Assembly (NCBI GenBank): GCA_013374015.1
Contig: BLLL01000010.1
Span: 1-64,000, forward strand
Source: Candidatus Desulfovibrio kirbyi
Lineage (GTDB): Bacteria > Desulfobacterota > Desulfovibrionia > Desulfovibrionales > Desulfovibrionaceae
DNA: 64,000 bases
Reading direction: 5' to 3'
Part shown: piece by piece, positions 1,752 through 32,030 of the stretch
Numbering within the stretch: the first letter of the stretch is position 1
How the letters are laid out: every line of letters begins with the position of its first letter
Made by a program: the position numbers and the translations under genes
Notes under the pieces: model-generated
What the model was told of the DNA's origin: nothing
The model's input: the letters and a program-made list of their open reading frames with translations, nothing else
Databases searched by the model: none

Positions 1752-3242
1752 ATGACCCAGCGTGAAAAACCCATTGAATACCGCATTGAACACGACTTTA
1801 TCGGCGAAAGGGAAGTGCCTGCGGGCGCGTATTACGGTGTGCAGTCCTTGCGCGGCAAAGAAAATTTCCCCATTACCGGCGACAGGATTCAGCCCAGCCT
1901 GATCAGGGCCATCGCCATGGTCAAGAAAGCCGCTGCCATCGCCAACAGGGACGTGGGGCTTCTTGAACCGGCATTGTGCAAGGCCATTGTGGCCGCGTGC
2001 GATGAGATCATTGCCGACAAGCACCACGATGAATTTATTGTGGACCCCATCCAGGGCGGCGCCGGGACATCGTTCAATATGAATGCCAACGAGGTCATTG
2101 CCAACAGGGCGCTGGAAATCCTGGGCAAGCCCTTGGGGCGGTACGACATTCTTTCTCCCAACACCGTGGACATGGGGCAATCCGCAAACGACGCCTTTCC
2201 CACAGCCATCCATGTAGCCGTTCTTGCTGATCTGGACAGCCTGATCGCGGAAATGCGCCGCATGCACGATTCCTTTGTGGGCAACGCCAGAAAATTCCAC
2301 GGTATGATCAAGATGGGCCGCACCCACTTGCAGGACGCTGTGCCCATACGGCTGGGGCAGGAATTTGAAGCCTATGCCCGCGTTATCAAGCGCGATATCA
2401 ATCGCATCAACGGCAGCGGGCAGCACCTCTATGTGATCAACCTCGGAGCGACGGCCGTGGGCACGGGGCTGAATGCCGATCCGGAATATATCAAGCTGGC
2501 GGTCAAGTATTTGTCGGAAATCAGCGGCTACTGCATGGTCAATGCGGAACATCTCGTGGACGCCACCCAGAATACGGACGCCTATACCGAAGTTTCCGCA
2601 TCCCTGAAAGTCTGCATGATGAACATGTCAAAAATCGCCAACGATATCCGCATGATGGCCTCCGGCCCCCGTTGCGGTCTGGCGGAACTCAATCTGCCCC
2701 CGCGTCAGCCCGGCTCATCCATCATGCCCGGCAAGGTCAACCCGGTGATGGCGGAAGTGGTCAATCAGGTGGCTTTTCAGGTTATCGGCAATGACAACAC
2801 CATCTGTCTTGCTTCTGAGGCCGGTCAGTTTGAACTGAACGTCATGGAGCCGGTGCTGGTGCACAACCTGCTGCAGAGCATACGCATCATGCGCAACGCT
2901 TTCCGCGTATTCCGCGAATTCCTGCTGGAAGGCTTGACGTCTAACGAGAAACGCATGAGCGACTATGTGGAGAACAGTGTGGGCATCATCACCGCCGTTT
3001 CGCCGCATATCGGCTATGAGGCCGCAGCCGCGATAGCCAAAGAGGCCATCACGACAGGCAAACCCGTGCGCGAATTGCTGATTCGTGAAAATCTGCTCAC
3101 AAAAGAAGATTTGGACAGCATCCTGCATCCGCTGGAAATGACCCAGCCGGGCATTGCCGGATACGCCCTGCTGAAAGCCAGAAAAAAGGCGGACAAAGGC
3201 GCCGGGAAAACAGCCCAAAAAACAAAGAACTCCGGGAAATGA
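1752..3242 (+). CDS. aspA: aspartate ammonia-lyase
   Basis: Aspartase of 496 residues, converting L-aspartate to fumarate and ammonia in the cytoplasm. In an anaerobe this can supply fumarate for respiration or amino-acid fermentation. The fumarase/aspartase signature GSSIMPGKVNPVMAE is intact around residues 318-332 and contains the catalytic serine loop. The N-terminal YYGVQSLR and TSFNMNANEVIANRA blocks separate aspartase from class II fumarase. The length is normal apart from a short Lys-rich tail. A strong GGGAGG ribosome site lies 6 bp before the ATG. The gene stands alone and ends in a hairpin at 3257-3302. Confidence 0.95.
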   Translation: MTQREKPIEYRIEHDFIGEREVPAGAYYGVQSLRGKENFPITGDRIQPSLIRAIAMVKKAAAIANRDVGLLEPALCKAIVAACDEIIADKHHDEFIVDPIQGGAGTSFNMNANEVIANRALEILGKPLGRYDILSPNTVDMGQSANDAFPTAIHVAVLADLDSLIAEMRRMHDSFVGNARKFHGMIKMGRTHLQDAVPIRLGQEFEAYARVIKRDINRINGSGQHLYVINLGATAVGTGLNADPEYIKLAVKYLSEISGYCMVNAEHLVDATQNTDAYTEVSASLKVCMMNMSKIANDIRMMASGPRCGLAELNLPPRQPGSSIMPGKVNPVMAEVVNQVAFQVIGNDNTICLASEAGQFELNVMEPVLVHNLLQSIRIMRNAFRVFREFLLEGLTSNEKRMSDYVENSVGIITAVSPHIGYEAAAAIAKEAITTGKPVRELLIRENLLTKEDLDSILHPLEMTQPGIAGYALLKARKKADKGAGKTAQKTKNSGK

Positions 3243-3256
3243 CACCCAGGCGCTTT

Positions 3257-3302
3257 ACAAAGTCCCAACAGCCCGCGCCGCGCGCTGTTTTGGGACTTTG
3301 TT
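3257..3302 (+). terminator. hairpin terminator after aspA
   Basis: ACAAAGTCCCAACAGC (3257-3272) pairs with a complementary arm ending at 3302, with a 2-nt bulge. The stem is about 16 bp. A T-rich stretch follows shortly after (from 3308). It lies between the convergent aspA and nitronate monooxygenase genes and may work in both directions. Confidence 0.6.
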
Positions 3303-3392
3303 GTGATACATTTTTCTTTATGATAGTATCGAAGCCGGTTTACGCCATCCAGAGCATTCGGCTATTTTTAACAGCAAAAAGCTTGTCAGATT

Positions 3393-4532
3393 TTACCCTA
3401 TACGGTCGAGGACAGTTTGTACGCCCTTGCCGAAAGCGCCGACGGCTTCGTCAAACTCGCGCTGCAATGAATCCATAAGTTCCCGCACAGAAACAATTTC
3501 GTTCACACGAAAAACATTTGCGCCGCAAAAGGCAAAGCCGCGTTCCAGGTTGCCTTTCATGGCGTTGGCAAGCACCTGGGCTATGCAGTAGGGCGTTTTT
3601 TCCTGCCGGCAACTGCTCACGCAGTGAAAAATACATTTGAAGGGTTTTGTAAGGCCGTTGCGTACAGACGCGATAAATTCATTGTTCAGTGCGCGGCCGG
3701 GCAAGCCGACAGGGCTTGTAATAATGGTCACGTCTTCCTCTTTTGCGGTGAGATAAGACTGTTTGAAACGCATATCCGCATCACACTCATGCGTTGCCAC
3801 AAAACGCGTACCCATCTGCACGCCGGCAGCCCCCATATCCAGAAACTCCTTGATATCCGCGCCCGTATACACGCCGCCGGCCGCAATCACAGGCACAGCG
3901 CGCCCAAATTTGTCTTCAAAGGGCTTGACCGCGTTAATGACCTCGGGCACAAGGTTCTCCAGCGTGCAGGAAGGGTCAAAAATTTCCGCGGGCTTGAATC
4001 CCAGATGTCCGCCAGCCTTGGGGCCTTCCACTACAAAGGCGTCCGGCAGATAGTTGAAATGGGATATCCATTTTTTTGCCAAAATTACCGCCGCCCTTGC
4101 CGAGGAAACAATGGGCACAAGTTTTGTTTTGAATTCTTCTTTTTTTTCTTCACAAAGCTGCAAGAGGTGGCGCGGCATATCTGTAGGCAGGCCCGCGCCG
4201 GAAAAAATCACGTCAATCCTTTCTTCGATGGCCGTGCGCACCATCTCCCTGAACGTGGTCAATACCACCATAATATTAACGCCGATAAGGCCGTGGGAAA
4301 GTTCTTGCGCCTTGGCGATTTCTTGGCGCAGGGCGCGCAAATTGGCCTCAAGCGGATTTTTGGCGATGTCCGGCTCTTTCATGCCGATCATGGCGGCCGC
4401 AATAACCCCTATGCCGCCCTGACTGGCTACCGCAGACGCCAAACCAGAAAGGGATATGCCCACCCCCATGCCGCCTTGCACAATGGGCACTTTAGCCGTT
4501 ATGTCGCCAATCTTGAGTAAGGGGAAAGTCAT
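3393..4532 (-). CDS. nitronate monooxygenase / NPD-family flavoprotein
   Basis: A 379-residue FMN-dependent TIM-barrel protein of the nitronate monooxygenase (2-nitropropane dioxygenase) family. Visible hallmarks are the N-terminal PIVQGGMGVGIS, a conserved VEGPKAGGHLG block around residues 168-178 that binds phosphate/FMN, AAGGVYTGADI, and MGAAGVQMGTRF near 240. The family includes nitronate detoxifying enzymes and FabK-type enoyl-ACP reductases. The cysteine-rich C-terminal segment (FHCVSSC...PYC, about 300-316) is typical of the longer anaerobe proteins annotated as nitronate monooxygenase. The physiological substrate is unknown. It is monocistronic on the minus strand. Confidence 0.85.
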   Translation of the reverse strand: MTFPLLKIGDITAKVPIVQGGMGVGISLSGLASAVASQGGIGVIAAAMIGMKEPDIAKNPLEANLRALRQEIAKAQELSHGLIGVNIMVVLTTFREMVRTAIEERIDVIFSGAGLPTDMPRHLLQLCEEKKEEFKTKLVPIVSSARAAVILAKKWISHFNYLPDAFVVEGPKAGGHLGFKPAEIFDPSCTLENLVPEVINAVKPFEDKFGRAVPVIAAGGVYTGADIKEFLDMGAAGVQMGTRFVATHECDADMRFKQSYLTAKEEDVTIITSPVGLPGRALNNEFIASVRNGLTKPFKCIFHCVSSCRQEKTPYCIAQVLANAMKGNLERGFAFCGANVFRVNEIVSVRELMDSLQREFDEAVGAFGKGVQTVLDRIG

Positions 4533-21536: not shown

Positions 21537-25307
<3,771 letters not shown>

Positions 25308-27321: not shown

Positions 27322-27771
27322 ATGCGAAAAAATAAAAAGAGCCATAAACTTATTGTCTTAGACAGCCATGTGATTGAGATCGCCGAAAAATATTTGAGTT
27401 CAGTAGACCCAATCCTTGGGAAAATCATAAAAAGCCATAAGCCATGCACAATCTGTGAAAAAGAAGGCGAAAGGGATCTTTTTGAGCAGTTATGTCTTTC
27501 AATTATCGGCCAGCAATTATCTGTTAAGGTGTCTCGAATAATCAGGGAACGCATACGAAATCAGATTGAAGTTTTCACATACAATTCCATACTTCATACA
27601 GATGAAGAAACACTGAGAGCTAATGGTTTATCTCGGGCTAAAATAAAGTATATTAAACCTCTCTCAACTTCTAGCGTTTCAAAAAAATGTTTCTTGACAC
27701 ATCTGCCAGTATGCACTATATTTAGTTCATTGATTAAATATGGAGGTTTTTATGTGTTCAGTCTTAGCTAA
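27322..27771 (+). pseudogene. truncated HhH-GPD DNA glycosylase (AlkA-like)
   Basis: The first about 110 residues match the N-terminal part of AlkA-like DNA-3-methyladenine glycosylases: DPILGKIIKSHKP, DLFEQLCLSIIGQQLSVKVSRIIRERI and LRANGLSRAKIKYIKPL. Homology then breaks off, and the helix-hairpin-helix LPGIG motif and catalytic Asp are missing. The frame runs on through unrelated residues to 27771, overlapping the start of the methyltransferase gene. It is probably inactive. A glycosylase beside a cytosine methyltransferase could once have repaired deaminated 5-methylcytosine. Confidence 0.6.
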
Positions 27772-30652
27772 TGCCGCTTCCAGAATAATCAGTAAGCGTA
27801 ATATAGATCGAACAATGCCATTTTTACGTCGCAAGCAGACTGGAAGCTTTTATACATCTGACGATTTAACAGCCGCAATGATTGATGATCTCATACAGTG
27901 CTTGCCTGATCATAAGCGCAATACACTGTATAATTTACGTTTTCTTGAGCCTTGTGTCGGTGCGGGAAGCTTTGTATTTGCCTATTTATTGGCGGCATTG
28001 CGGTTTAAATTCACACAAGAGCAGTCACACAAATTGATTAACAATATATACGTCTGCGATATCAACGCTGATGCTATTAATTCCTATTCTGTTGCATTGC
28101 GCGATTTTGCTTTAAAATACTTTGGTATCAGTCTTGCTGAGGACTATTTTGCCACGCATGTTGGTGGTGGTCTGTTGTTCAACCTCGACAGCGCCATGCC
28201 ACGCTATACATCAATCGACAGTATTTTTGGCAATTGTATGGAAAATAGTTTTGATATCATAGTTACTAATCCCCCTTACAAAAATCTTAAGGCAGAGCGA
28301 AAACATTATCAGTCAATTGAAGCATATAACGCCGACAGGGCAAGATATGCTACAGTAACTGAACAAGCGGCACGGCATTTGCATTATTCTATACACGGGG
28401 TAAATAATTTGTTTAAGTTATTCTTTGAGGAAATTTTTGAACGTTATGCAGCTAAAGACGGCATAATATCTTTGTTGGTACCTTCTTCAATTTTAACTGA
28501 TAAAACTTGTGAACAGTTGCGCAGGCGGATATTTGCTACATCGGGGATTAAGTCCATTAAGGTTATCGGGGAAAATAGCACTGTTGTCGATGCGCAGCAG
28601 GCGTTGTGCGCCCTACTTATCCAAAAAAATGTGCAGTTTCAAACTATGGAGGTCTGTCAAAACTACGGTACACTTAAGGCGAAAGCCGTAACAATAGAAA
28701 CAGCGAAAGCCATTGACAAGGACTTAGGACATTCAATTCTCATATTAGATCCATCTGAATATGAGAAATTGAGACAATTAAAAAAATATCCAAAGATTAA
28801 GGAGTTGTCTTTTATTGTAAATATGCGAGGTGAACTTGACCTCACAGCTAATAAGGGCGCAATTGTTACACAAAATACTGGATATCCATTGATCCGTGGG
28901 AGAAATATTGGATATTATCAATTACTAGGTATGCCGACCGATGAATTTGTTGCGCCATCATTCGTAAAACAAAGCTCAAAACGGTGTTTTATTGACGGTG
29001 AGCGTCTTATATGCCAGCAAATTGCCAACATGTCTAAGGAGAGAAGACTAACATTTGCTGTTATACAGAAGTATAATGTACTAGGTAACACATGCAATTT
29101 TATAGCAATCAAAGAAAATAAATATGATATAGACATATATTTTATGCTTGGTCTGCTTAACTCAAGCATAATGAATTGGTACTTCAAAATTCAAAGCAGT
29201 AATAATCACATTAATAATTATGAAATTGCCTGTTTTCCTGTACCGGTAGATTTTAATTGTAAATCTCAAATTGCTGACCTGGCAAAAGAATACATCGCAG
29301 ATACAAATAGAACACTGCTTCTTGACAGAATTGACGAGTTAGTTAAAGAAGCATTTTGTTTAAACAGAATTGAAATCAAAATGGAACTCCCCACATTTCC
29401 AGATACAACTGCGTTTGATAAAAGAGTTATTTGTGCTATAACCGAAAAGCAAGAAAAGCTATCCCGTGGAGAAATTCTAAACCACACCACATTCAAACTC
29501 AGCAAGTTGGACTTGGAAATGGTTCGTTCCGTACCACAAGGCGGCAATTGGAAAAATATTCCCACCGAAACAGTCGCTAAGTCAAAGAGATTGGAGCAAA
29601 TCACCAAAACTGGAGGGCGCACTACACTCTACGGACGCATTGACTACAATAAGCCGGGTTATACGATAACGACATATTTCAACCGTCCCGGCAATGGAAC
29701 GTATATACATCCCGTTCACGACAGGGTTCTGTCAGTTCGCGAAGCGGCAAGGTTTCAGACGTTTCCCGATTCATATTACTTTTGCGGAAATAAAACGCAG
29801 TTGCTCAATCAAGTCGGCAACGCCGTACCTCCTCTGTTCGCTTATCAAATAGCAAAAAAACTGATTGACGAGGTCGGTTGTGAACGCTCACTTGACTTAT
29901 TTTGTGGCGCAGGCGGCATGACACTCGGTTTCAAACAGGCAGGAATTAAATCTGTGTTAAGTACAGATATTGAGCCGATCGCTTGCCTTACGTTGAAAGT
30001 AAACAATCCCGAGATTCCCGTTCTGTGCGGCAATGTAACCCAAGAGGACATAAAGGCGAAGATACTTGAAGCCACCCTTGCGAACAATGTTGATATGCTC
30101 TGCGGAGGGCCACCATGCCAAGGGTTCTCAATGGCGGGTCATAGGCTGTCCGATGATCCGCGAAATCAGCTAGTTAAGGATTTTATTGATATTGTCAGGC
30201 AGGTGAAGCCGAAAATTCTTGTACTTGAGAATGTCGAAGGATTGCTAACATTTCAAGGTGGCGCAATATATCGCCTCATCCACGATATGTTTTCCGAAAT
30301 CGGCTACAACACCGAGGGGAGGCTTATGCAGACCCACCTCTTTGGCGTACCTCAAAAGCGCAAGCGTGTCATTATAATGTGCATCAGGGATGATGCTGGT
30401 TTGTCAGCGAGCAAACTATATCCCACGCCTGTAACCACGGACGAACACTCGCAGAGCACCGCACGGGAAGCTATCTCCGATTTAGAGAGCGTTGAATGTG
30501 GCGATGGAGCTAAGTATGACGGTGCAGAGTATTCGAATTTTGTCGCTATGTTGAAAGGCGAGGTCACGCAGGATGTATTCCTGCGCGGACTCGTGGGGAA
30601 CAGCAAGCGTCAAAATATCCCAAAGTTTAAGCAGTTGTTGCTGTTTGGATAA
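27752..30652 (+). CDS. fused type IIS DNA methyltransferase: adenine-N6 domain + circularly permuted cytosine-C5 domain
   Basis: About 966 residues (numbering from the frame start at 27740). The N-terminal half is an N6-adenine methyltransferase: SAM motif LEPCVGAGSF (69-78), DINADA near 107, catalytic NPPY (177-180), then a TaqI/Eco57I-like recognition region to about 540. The C-terminal half is a 5-cytosine methyltransferase with motifs out of usual order: recognition-type segment (VPQGGNWKNIP), motif IX RVLSVREAARFQTFP (662-676), motif X QVGNAVPP (691-698), then motif I LDLFCGAGG (718), PPC catalytic Cys 793, ENV (830-832) and QKRKR (872-876). Each domain would protect one strand of an asymmetric site. 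GGAGG 5 bp before ATG 27752 fixes the start. It is convergent with the endonuclease, overlapping 26 bp. Confidence 0.92.
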   Translation: MCSVLANAASRIISKRNIDRTMPFLRRKQTGSFYTSDDLTAAMIDDLIQCLPDHKRNTLYNLRFLEPCVGAGSFVFAYLLAALRFKFTQEQSHKLINNIYVCDINADAINSYSVALRDFALKYFGISLAEDYFATHVGGGLLFNLDSAMPRYTSIDSIFGNCMENSFDIIVTNPPYKNLKAERKHYQSIEAYNADRARYATVTEQAARHLHYSIHGVNNLFKLFFEEIFERYAAKDGIISLLVPSSILTDKTCEQLRRRIFATSGIKSIKVIGENSTVVDAQQALCALLIQKNVQFQTMEVCQNYGTLKAKAVTIETAKAIDKDLGHSILILDPSEYEKLRQLKKYPKIKELSFIVNMRGELDLTANKGAIVTQNTGYPLIRGRNIGYYQLLGMPTDEFVAPSFVKQSSKRCFIDGERLICQQIANMSKERRLTFAVIQKYNVLGNTCNFIAIKENKYDIDIYFMLGLLNSSIMNWYFKIQSSNNHINNYEIACFPVPVDFNCKSQIADLAKEYIADTNRTLLLDRIDELVKEAFCLNRIEIKMELPTFPDTTAFDKRVICAITEKQEKLSRGEILNHTTFKLSKLDLEMVRSVPQGGNWKNIPTETVAKSKRLEQITKTGGRTTLYGRIDYNKPGYTITTYFNRPGNGTYIHPVHDRVLSVREAARFQTFPDSYYFCGNKTQLLNQVGNAVPPLFAYQIAKKLIDEVGCERSLDLFCGAGGMTLGFKQAGIKSVLSTDIEPIACLTLKVNNPEIPVLCGNVTQEDIKAKILEATLANNVDMLCGGPPCQGFSMAGHRLSDDPRNQLVKDFIDIVRQVKPKILVLENVEGLLTFQGGAIYRLIHDMFSEIGYNTEGRLMQTHLFGVPQKRKRVIIMCIRDDAGLSASKLYPTPVTTDEHSQSTAREAISDLESVECGDGAKYDGAEYSNFVAMLKGEVTQDVFLRGLVGNSKRQNIPKFKQLLLFG

Positions 30653-32030
30653 TGCGGGTTTCAATGCGACTGACAAGCCGCTCTAACATCTTTCGGCAAA
30701 CAACAAAATCACCGTTTTTTATTGCTGCACAAAGGCGGACTAACTCCGCTCGCTCCTCCTCCGTCAAGTTGGGCACCAAGTGACGATTGTCTTTCGTTGC
30801 GTAGTCCTCCAGCGATTGAAAAGCTATTCGTCTAAATCGATCAAGTTCCTTTTTGCCCCGCTCGGTGATGTTTCGCTTCGTTTGTTTGACGATGTTGCCG
30901 TTCGCGTCAAACTTGTATGCGTAGTGAAAGCCTTCATATTTTGGATCAATGAACTCTTTAACGAGAAACGCACGTCCACACTCTTCTGCATCGTCAACGA
31001 TTGACTTAAGGACAAACATATAATTTGCCAGGTTCTGCTTCAACATATCGCGATAAACGGTCGCGACAATGTCGGCATGCTGCTTATCATAGTTTGTCTT
31101 GATAAATTCCCATATCTCGGCAGAGAACCAGGACATCGGGGACACATCGCTTGCCGCTTCCACAGTAAGAATCGCTTTAATATCATCGACAAGCAAGCGA
31201 TCGCGTTTAGTAGAATTGTCGCTATTTGTCATCGGACGAATATATCGCGGATCATGAACGAAACCGAGTGAAATTGGCCCCATATGATCTGCGCTCATGA
31301 CACTGAAACTCTGACTGCCCATAAACATATCGGCAGCGTGAAGATTGCCATCGCTCCAGTATTCGTAGGCGCGGCGGTCTTTTGTATAGCTTTTGAGGTT
31401 TTCGCGAGAACGCCCTTTGTCCTGTGTAGCACGGCAACAACGATTATAAGTATGGAAGCCATCATAGCGGTCGGGAAAGTTGGACATCGCACCGGGGCTA
31501 AGTAAGGCTTTTCCATCTTCGCGGCACTTACGCTCACACATGTCGATTATTTCGTTTTTGCTCTTGCCGTCAACCTCTTCTAGCTCAAACTTAGATTTGA
31601 AGAACGTCATTAACGTATTCTCTGGTACACCACTTTCAAGGATTTTCTCCCATATCTCACCGATATGGTTGCACCCGGTAAATTGTAGACCAAACTTACT
31701 CTCAATAGCTTTAAGAAAATTCACACTCGGATAGTGGTAGTAAATCGACATATGTGAGCCGCAAATCTGACACACTTTGATTTTAGTAGGGTGAATTTCT
31801 AACATGACATTGGCATAAACGCCAGGCTGAATATGCATGCCTAGACTACGGGCTTTATCCTCTGCCCACTTTATGCGGCGCTTGCCGATAGTGGTTTTCG
31901 CCGAGGCCACCCAAGCGAGCAAGCCATCTCTCTTACGTTCAATCGGTAACCCACTGTAATTCGGGTGTTTAACGATGGTTTCCATATAAGATAAAAAGTC
32001 AGGGTGCCACTTTCGCTCTGTTTTTGCCAT
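30627..32030 (-). CDS. type IIS restriction endonuclease, Alw26I/Eco31I/Esp3I family
   Basis: A 467-residue endonuclease resembling the Alw26I/Eco31I/Esp3I family, whose members recognise GTCTC-type asymmetric sites and cut outside them with one HNH site. Family blocks include the N-terminal WHPDFLSYMETIVKHPNY, CQICGSHMSIYYHYP (87-101), YNRCCR (195-200), DRRAYEYWSDGN (218-229) and the presumed HNH core SADHMGPISLGF (246-257) with NSDNSTKRDRL (269-279) supplying the Asn. No frameshift is seen, so it may be active. It faces the fused methyltransferase, tail to tail. The exact recognition sequence cannot be deduced. Confidence 0.85.
   Translation of the reverse strand: MAKTERKWHPDFLSYMETIVKHPNYSGLPIERKRDGLLAWVASAKTTIGKRRIKWAEDKARSLGMHIQPGVYANVMLEIHPTKIKVCQICGSHMSIYYHYPSVNFLKAIESKFGLQFTGCNHIGEIWEKILESGVPENTLMTFFKSKFELEEVDGKSKNEIIDMCERKCREDGKALLSPGAMSNFPDRYDGFHTYNRCCRATQDKGRSRENLKSYTKDRRAYEYWSDGNLHAADMFMGSQSFSVMSADHMGPISLGFVHDPRYIRPMTNSDNSTKRDRLLVDDIKAILTVEAASDVSPMSWFSAEIWEFIKTNYDKQHADIVATVYRDMLKQNLANYMFVLKSIVDDAEECGRAFLVKEFIDPKYEGFHYAYKFDANGNIVKQTKRNITERGKKELDRFRRIAFQSLEDYATKDNRHLVPNLTEEERAELVRLCAAIKNGDFVVCRKMLERLVSRIETRIIQTATTA

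Follow-up and report, generated by a model that had tools for sequence, protein, structure and literature searches.

A fused adenine and circularly permuted cytosine methyltransferase in a type IIS cassette of Candidatus Desulfovibrio kirbyi: constant permutation and recurrent fusion in its family

A stretch of 64,000 nucleotides of the Candidatus Desulfovibrio kirbyi genome (assembly GCA_013374015.1, contig BLLL01000010.1, positions 1 to 64,000; hereafter the window) carries one gene whose product combines an N6-adenine (m6A) with a C5-cytosine (m5C) DNA methyltransferase, the motifs of the latter standing in a permuted order. This raises the question of whether permutation and fusion have a common cause. 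The first-pass annotation of the locus had suggested that they do, the permutation having possibly arisen when the cytosine domain was joined to its partner. Here, the architecture of the protein, its cassette and its relatives were examined.

The methyltransferase and its permuted cytosine domain

The fused m6A and circularly permuted m5C methyltransferase gene occupies positions 27752–30652 of the forward strand (966 aa). The longest open reading frame begins at 27740 (970 aa), and the ATG at 27752 is the likely start codon, favoured by the GGAGG ribosome-binding site located 5 nt upstream of it (27742–27746, forward strand). The frame is intact and contains no stop, and both methyltransferase domains share it. 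The coordinates in the first-pass annotation were those of the 966-aa frame and stand, but its residue numbers followed the 970-aa frame and thus slipped by four; motif positions below refer to the 970-aa frame.

The N-terminal half (27833–29431, forward strand) was assigned by TIGR02987, PF07669, PF12950 and structure to the gamma-class, TaqI/CamA-like m6A methyltransferases with a TaqI-type specificity domain. The TIGR02987 model (met_A_Alw26) matched residues 32–564 with 410.8 bits, above the curated cut-off of 353.5, and when the genome was searched with the same model this protein was the sole match above the cut-off (413 bits). Pfam searches revealed the Eco57I (PF07669) and TaqI_C (PF12950) domains, and the adenine motifs LEPC (residue 69) and NPPY (residues 177–180; 28268–28279, forward strand) were identified. 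The AlphaFold model of the whole protein is confident (pLDDT 85.8), and the fold of the m6A half aligned with those of CamA (Z 26.5), M.BseCI (24.4) and M.TaqI (23.1).

In the C-terminal half, a displaced block comprising the target recognition domain (TRD), motif IX and motif X (29474–29875, forward strand; residues 579–712) precedes the m5C catalytic core with motifs I–VIII (29876–30529, forward strand), the latter delimited by PF00145/TIGR00675 and by alignment of the model to M.HhaI. The motifs follow one another as GGNW (601), IX (REAAR, 667), X (GNAVPP, 693), I (DLFCGAGG, 719), IV (the catalytic PPC, 791–793; 30110–30118, forward strand), VI (ENV, 830) and VIII (QKRKR, 872), and the set of C5 motifs I, IV (PCQ), VI (ENV), VIII, IX and X is complete. 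PF00145 matched with 230.6 bits, split into two separate stretches of this half, and the match to DNMT1 was swapped, residues 579–714 aligning with its C-terminal part and residues 716–884 with its N-terminal part. The C5 part modelled alone with AlphaFold gave a confident structure (pLDDT 91.3, pTM 0.91). In a sequential structural alignment (Z 19.5, rmsd 2.5, 184 residues), in which matches are made in chain order and chiefly the C5 core block therefore appears, residue 1 of M.HhaI aligned to residue 142 of the C5 model, so the canonical chain starts past the displaced TRD-IX-X block. Seven C5 enzymes of canonical order served as controls, and for all of them (7/7) the same procedure returned the normal order. 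Judged from the motifs and the predicted fold, the placement of the TRD-IX-X block before motifs I–VIII is a real circular permutation of type H.

These results bear out the main description in the first-pass annotation, namely a single protein with m6A and m5C motifs and a cytosine motif order IX-X-I-IV-VI-VIII with PPC at 793. Both halves gave profile matches beyond chance (TIGR02987 on the m6A half and PF00145 on the m5C half), and the structure prediction proposed as a check of the permuted fold agreed with it.

The partner endonuclease

The gene on the opposite strand at 30627–32030 encodes a 467-aa type IIS restriction endonuclease of the Alw26I/Eco31I/Esp3I family, recognised by TIGR02986, PF09665 and a DH...N motif. 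It is convergent with the methyltransferase gene and overlaps it by 26 bp. The TIGR02986 (restrict_Alw26I) score was 450 bits (curated cut-off 443.85) and that of PF09665 was 279 bits; a search of the PDB returned no solved relative of the endonuclease. Residues DH (248–249) and N272, which were compared with HNH catalytic residues, are invariant among five aligned endonucleases. By these matches the methyltransferase and endonuclease genes form a type IIS restriction-modification cassette, and the membership in the Alw26I/Eco31I/Esp3I group that had been proposed from the letters alone is confirmed by both family models scoring above their cut-offs and by the convergent endonuclease gene.

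The aligned endonucleases differ past the HNH motif, where L006 (Eco31I-like) and L008 carry a CxxC pair, while the window endonuclease and its relatives from Bacillota plasmids, L004 and L005, carry SDNS. A zinc site seems to have been lost in the clade formed by the last three.

Permutation and fusion across the family

When genome contigs were scanned using five aligned endonucleases as the query, 64 loci in many phyla, including archaea, were identified. Viral contigs scanned with the endonuclease alignment yielded four loci, and a single-sequence scan of them found no confirmed relative; mainly viral carriage of the cassette was rejected on these counts. In one of the viral contigs (L073), two Alw26I-family endonuclease genes (712–2112 and 2129–3526) stand in tandem beside one fused methyltransferase. 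In two other cassettes the fused methyltransferase gene is interrupted, by a stop codon in frame in L031 and apparently by a frameshift in L034, and the adjoining endonuclease frame is full length or nearly so.

The order of the C5 blocks was scored with domain queries derived from the window protein, and in every protein holding both blocks the TRD-IX-X block came first. Once duplicates and broken copies had been discarded, 64 permuted proteins including the window's were taken into the tree, among them plasmid and phage rows found via the methyltransferase itself (L004, L005, L006, L007 and L008). Of these proteins, 34 were labelled as fused (block deep in the protein), 28 as separate and 2 as unsure; L037 was counted as separate, though its contig ends close to the start of its gene. 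Thus, the related cytosine domains besides the window's are permuted without exception (63/63), in fused proteins and in separate genes alike. The separate permuted members span Bacteroidota, Pseudomonadota, Cyanobacteriota, archaea and one Thermus phage, phiLo, whose permuted C5 methyltransferase (L007, 3992–5191) stands alone without an m6A half.

The tree groups the window C5 domain with that of L009 (78% identical); both fall in a clade made up mostly of Bacillota, and every member of this clade that could be scored is fused. Beyond this clade fused and separate forms are intermixed, and at least six changes of fusion state are placed on the tree. A single clade of fused enzymes was rejected by the AU test (p 0.00018), whereas a single clade of permuted enzymes was not (p 0.24). 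A single origin of the permutation is thus allowed by the tree, though not proven. In the best free tree one canonical enzyme, L079, sits close to the permuted proteins at the end of a long branch. This protein, encoded on an Enterococcus faecium plasmid beside a BpuSI-family endonuclease gene, is, of the canonical enzymes examined, the one most closely related to them over the entire TRD block, and it may stand close to the ancestor from which the permuted family arose.

In most separate pairs, the stop codon of the m6A gene overlaps the start codon of the C5 gene or directly adjoins it (ATGA and similar junctions). In three loci (L052, L056 and L057) the two genes lie in the same frame with one stop codon between them. 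Such arrangements make fusion or fission an easy step. Since all separate members are permuted too, permutation needs no fusion. We therefore regard the permutation as an old trait of the cytosine enzyme of this family and the fusion as an independent, repeatedly changed joining of neighbouring genes. As the tree is weakly rooted, it is possible that some of the separate forms were derived from fused ones by fission.

The view that the permutation was created at the moment of fusion, with the joining providing the C5 enzyme with its new N-terminus, would agree with the C-terminal position of the permuted domain in the window protein and the 33 other fused rows. The 28 separate rows that are equally permuted and the opposite outcomes of the two AU tests speak against it, as do M2.Eco31I and M2.BsaI, which are described in the literature as separate yet permuted (PMC5944983, PMC3874165). 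The suggestion made in the first-pass annotation is hence disfavoured, unless every separate member came from a fused ancestor by fission, and we consider it decidedly unlikely. Another explanation, an artefact of assembly or recombination in the host genome, would draw on its draft state (43 contigs); the annotation itself had named normally ordered homologues combined with a local rearrangement as the finding that would overturn it. The same order is, however, seen in L009 (identity of 78% over C5 columns and of 68% along the full protein), as well as in another 32 fused relatives whose assemblies are independent, and the predicted C5 fold is confident. These 33 fused homologues refute the artefact, whose probability is practically negligible. 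What is new here is the combination of constant permutation with recurrent fusion in one family, which makes it a clean natural case in which the permutation of a protein can be separated from the fusion of genes.

Proposed function

With a probability of about 0.9, the methyltransferase is the modification part of an Alw26I/Eco31I/Esp3I type IIS cassette, whose m6A and m5C marks on opposite strands shield the host from the endonuclease. In the proposed mechanism, the N-terminal half would recognise a short asymmetric site on one strand and methylate adenine at N6, and the C-terminal half, as a type-H permuted m5C enzyme, would methylate a cytosine on the opposite strand. Both marks would hide the host sites from the neighbouring endonuclease, whose cuts would fall a few bases beyond the site in DNA lacking the modification. 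By analogy with the family, the site is most likely GTCTC or this sequence extended by one base, and the assignment of the strands and the protection of the host would carry over from the family too. The earlier proposal that one polypeptide protects both strands of an asymmetric site follows from published data on the double methyltransferases of the family (PMC3874165, Table 3).

Two other readings of the locus were weighed against this one. The cassette might be decaying, its methyltransferase being inactive or setting an orphan mark and its endonuclease being dead. The truncated glycosylase at its flank, the neighbouring DUF4145 ORF, which is a fragment, and the absence from the endonuclease of the two cysteines that adjoin the HNH motif in the Eco31I-like sequence are all compatible with such decay. 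Nevertheless, neither of the two main ORFs is shortened and both score above curated cut-offs, all invariant catalytic motifs are retained, and the intact relatives L004 and L005 likewise lack the cysteine pair, which leaves decay as an unlikely reading. Alternatively, the two halves might target different sites, with the fusion acting as a co-expression device only, a notion that draws on the fact that each half has its own recognition domain (TaqI_C, PF12950, and the C5 TRD). A type IIS endonuclease, however, requires both strands to be protected after replication. In the characterised family members both modified bases lie in one asymmetric site (PMC3874165, PMC4659465), and separate targets are very improbable.

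Host genome and GTCTC counts

The GC content of the methyltransferase and endonuclease genes is 37–47% and that of the glycosylase remnant is 36%, against 57% for the genes on both sides, and this contrast suggests that the cassette was gained horizontally. It stands beside a cutA-kinase pair, which is a constant feature of the genus: cutA was detected in 30 of the 41 genomes searched, and the kinase gene adjoins it at every locus examined. Among the 101 genomes searched around the host, the family endonuclease was found in the host and one congener only.

The pentamer GTCTC is scarce in the 461 kb of host DNA that were counted, with an observed/expected ratio of 0.65 (rank 10 of 1024 pentamers), and no strong preference for flanking bases was seen at the host GTCTC sites, as would fit a five-base site. 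The ratio is 0.58 in G010, a congener in which no cassette was detected, and 0.78 in G009. As a relative without a detected cassette is equally GTCTC-poor, scarcity in the host does not single out the cassette, and avoidance of GTCTC was dropped as proof of the site.

Elsewhere in the window, a run of approximately 34 CA repeats (21608–21690) lies where a large autotransporter-like ORF (21615–25307, forward strand) begins. At the assembled repeat length the upstream ATGs are out of frame, as in phase-variable surface proteins.

Genes accompanying the cassette

Upstream of the methyltransferase gene lies a truncated AlkA-like HhH-GPD DNA glycosylase gene (27322–27666, the frame running to 27771, forward strand; PF00730, 31.7 bits). 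The likeness covers approximately the first 115 codons, and the gene is without the helix-hairpin-helix and catalytic Asp region; intact copies occur beside sister cassettes. No ortholog of the stub above 38% identity was found in 41 genomes of the genus, and the short cutA loci of the relatives contained no match to it beside cutA. Hence, a host alkA broken by insertion was rejected as its source, and it is more likely, given these comparisons, that the stub came with the cassette.

All-against-all clustering of neighbour genes showed that a glycosylase of this type, whose nearest solved relatives are 3-methyladenine glycosylases, is a neighbour in seven loci including the window. It adjoins the endonuclease gene on the same strand in L013 (6350–6973), L017 (6334–6996), L018 (6310–6957) and L020 (6311–6958) and divergently in L069 (6212–6811), and in L062 (11619–12257) it lies upstream of the m6A gene. 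With 129 HhH-GPD genes in 160 Mb (50 genomes), 0.14 glycosylase genes would be expected by chance within 1.5 kb of a cassette, and six were seen. When four related Bacillota loci were counted once, three loci remained (Poisson p ~0.0004); this count was made after the pattern had been noticed and is therefore a lead only. A literature search for a glycosylase tied to Alw26I-family cassettes found nothing specific. We tentatively propose, as a conjecture somewhat more likely to fail than to hold, that the cassette often travels with a dedicated AlkA-like repair partner, acting on methylation-caused damage or on T:G mismatches (cf. Vsr), of which the window stub would be a remnant. Should the recurrent glycosylase prove functional, a widely used class of type IIS restriction systems would be found to have a new repair accessory.

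Neighbour clustering distinguished two further families. A controller-like HTH_3 protein is present in 12 loci (four sampled members match HTH_3), and a family of ~150-aa proteins has its genes immediately adjacent to that of the fused methyltransferase in six cassettes (L018 11503–11970, L020 11490–11942, L017 2472–2933, L010 10971–11423, L073 6608–7069 and L016 4980–5189). The latter gave no Pfam match and, as we presume by eye, resembles a putative PUA/ASCH-type domain.

Comparison with known systems

In this family each half methylates one strand, at adenine or at cytosine, and the endonuclease cuts outside the unmarked site (PMC3874165, PMC4659465). Natural C5 enzymes with a type-H permutation include M.BssHII, M.Alw26I, M2.Eco31I, M.Esp3I and M2.BsaI, and 22 further permuted enzymes from REBASE are reported (PMC5944983). 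M.BssHII shares the permuted motifs with the window protein, but no m6A enzyme is described as fused to it. Conversely, CamA, M.BseCI and M.TaqI share the fold of the m6A half, with 16–19% identity over aligned residues, but recognise other sites and have no m5C partner.

Further counterparts are the M1/M2.Eco31I-like systems of Escherichia coli (L006), Enterobacter (L063) and Buttiauxella (L051), which have the same three activities, a permuted m5C enzyme and a convergent endonuclease. Unlike in the window, their m6A and m5C enzymes are encoded by separate overlapping genes (the m6A gene of L006 being broken), and the C5 domain of the Buttiauxella system is 39% identical to the window's. The nearest relative found, L009 of Lachnoclostridium sp., is fused and permuted with the same gene order, but its host is assigned to Bacillota, and no glycosylase gene was seen on either side of the cassette. 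Among characterised enzymes, M.Esp3I is a fusion of gamma-m6A and m5C domains, while Eco31I and BsaI are split (PMC3874165); like the window protein, the M.Esp3I/BsmBI type has an N-terminal gamma-m6A half, a C-terminal permuted m5C half and an Alw26I-family endonuclease as partner. Fusion and permutation have thus both been published already, and in combination in M.Esp3I, of which architecture the window protein is a further example.
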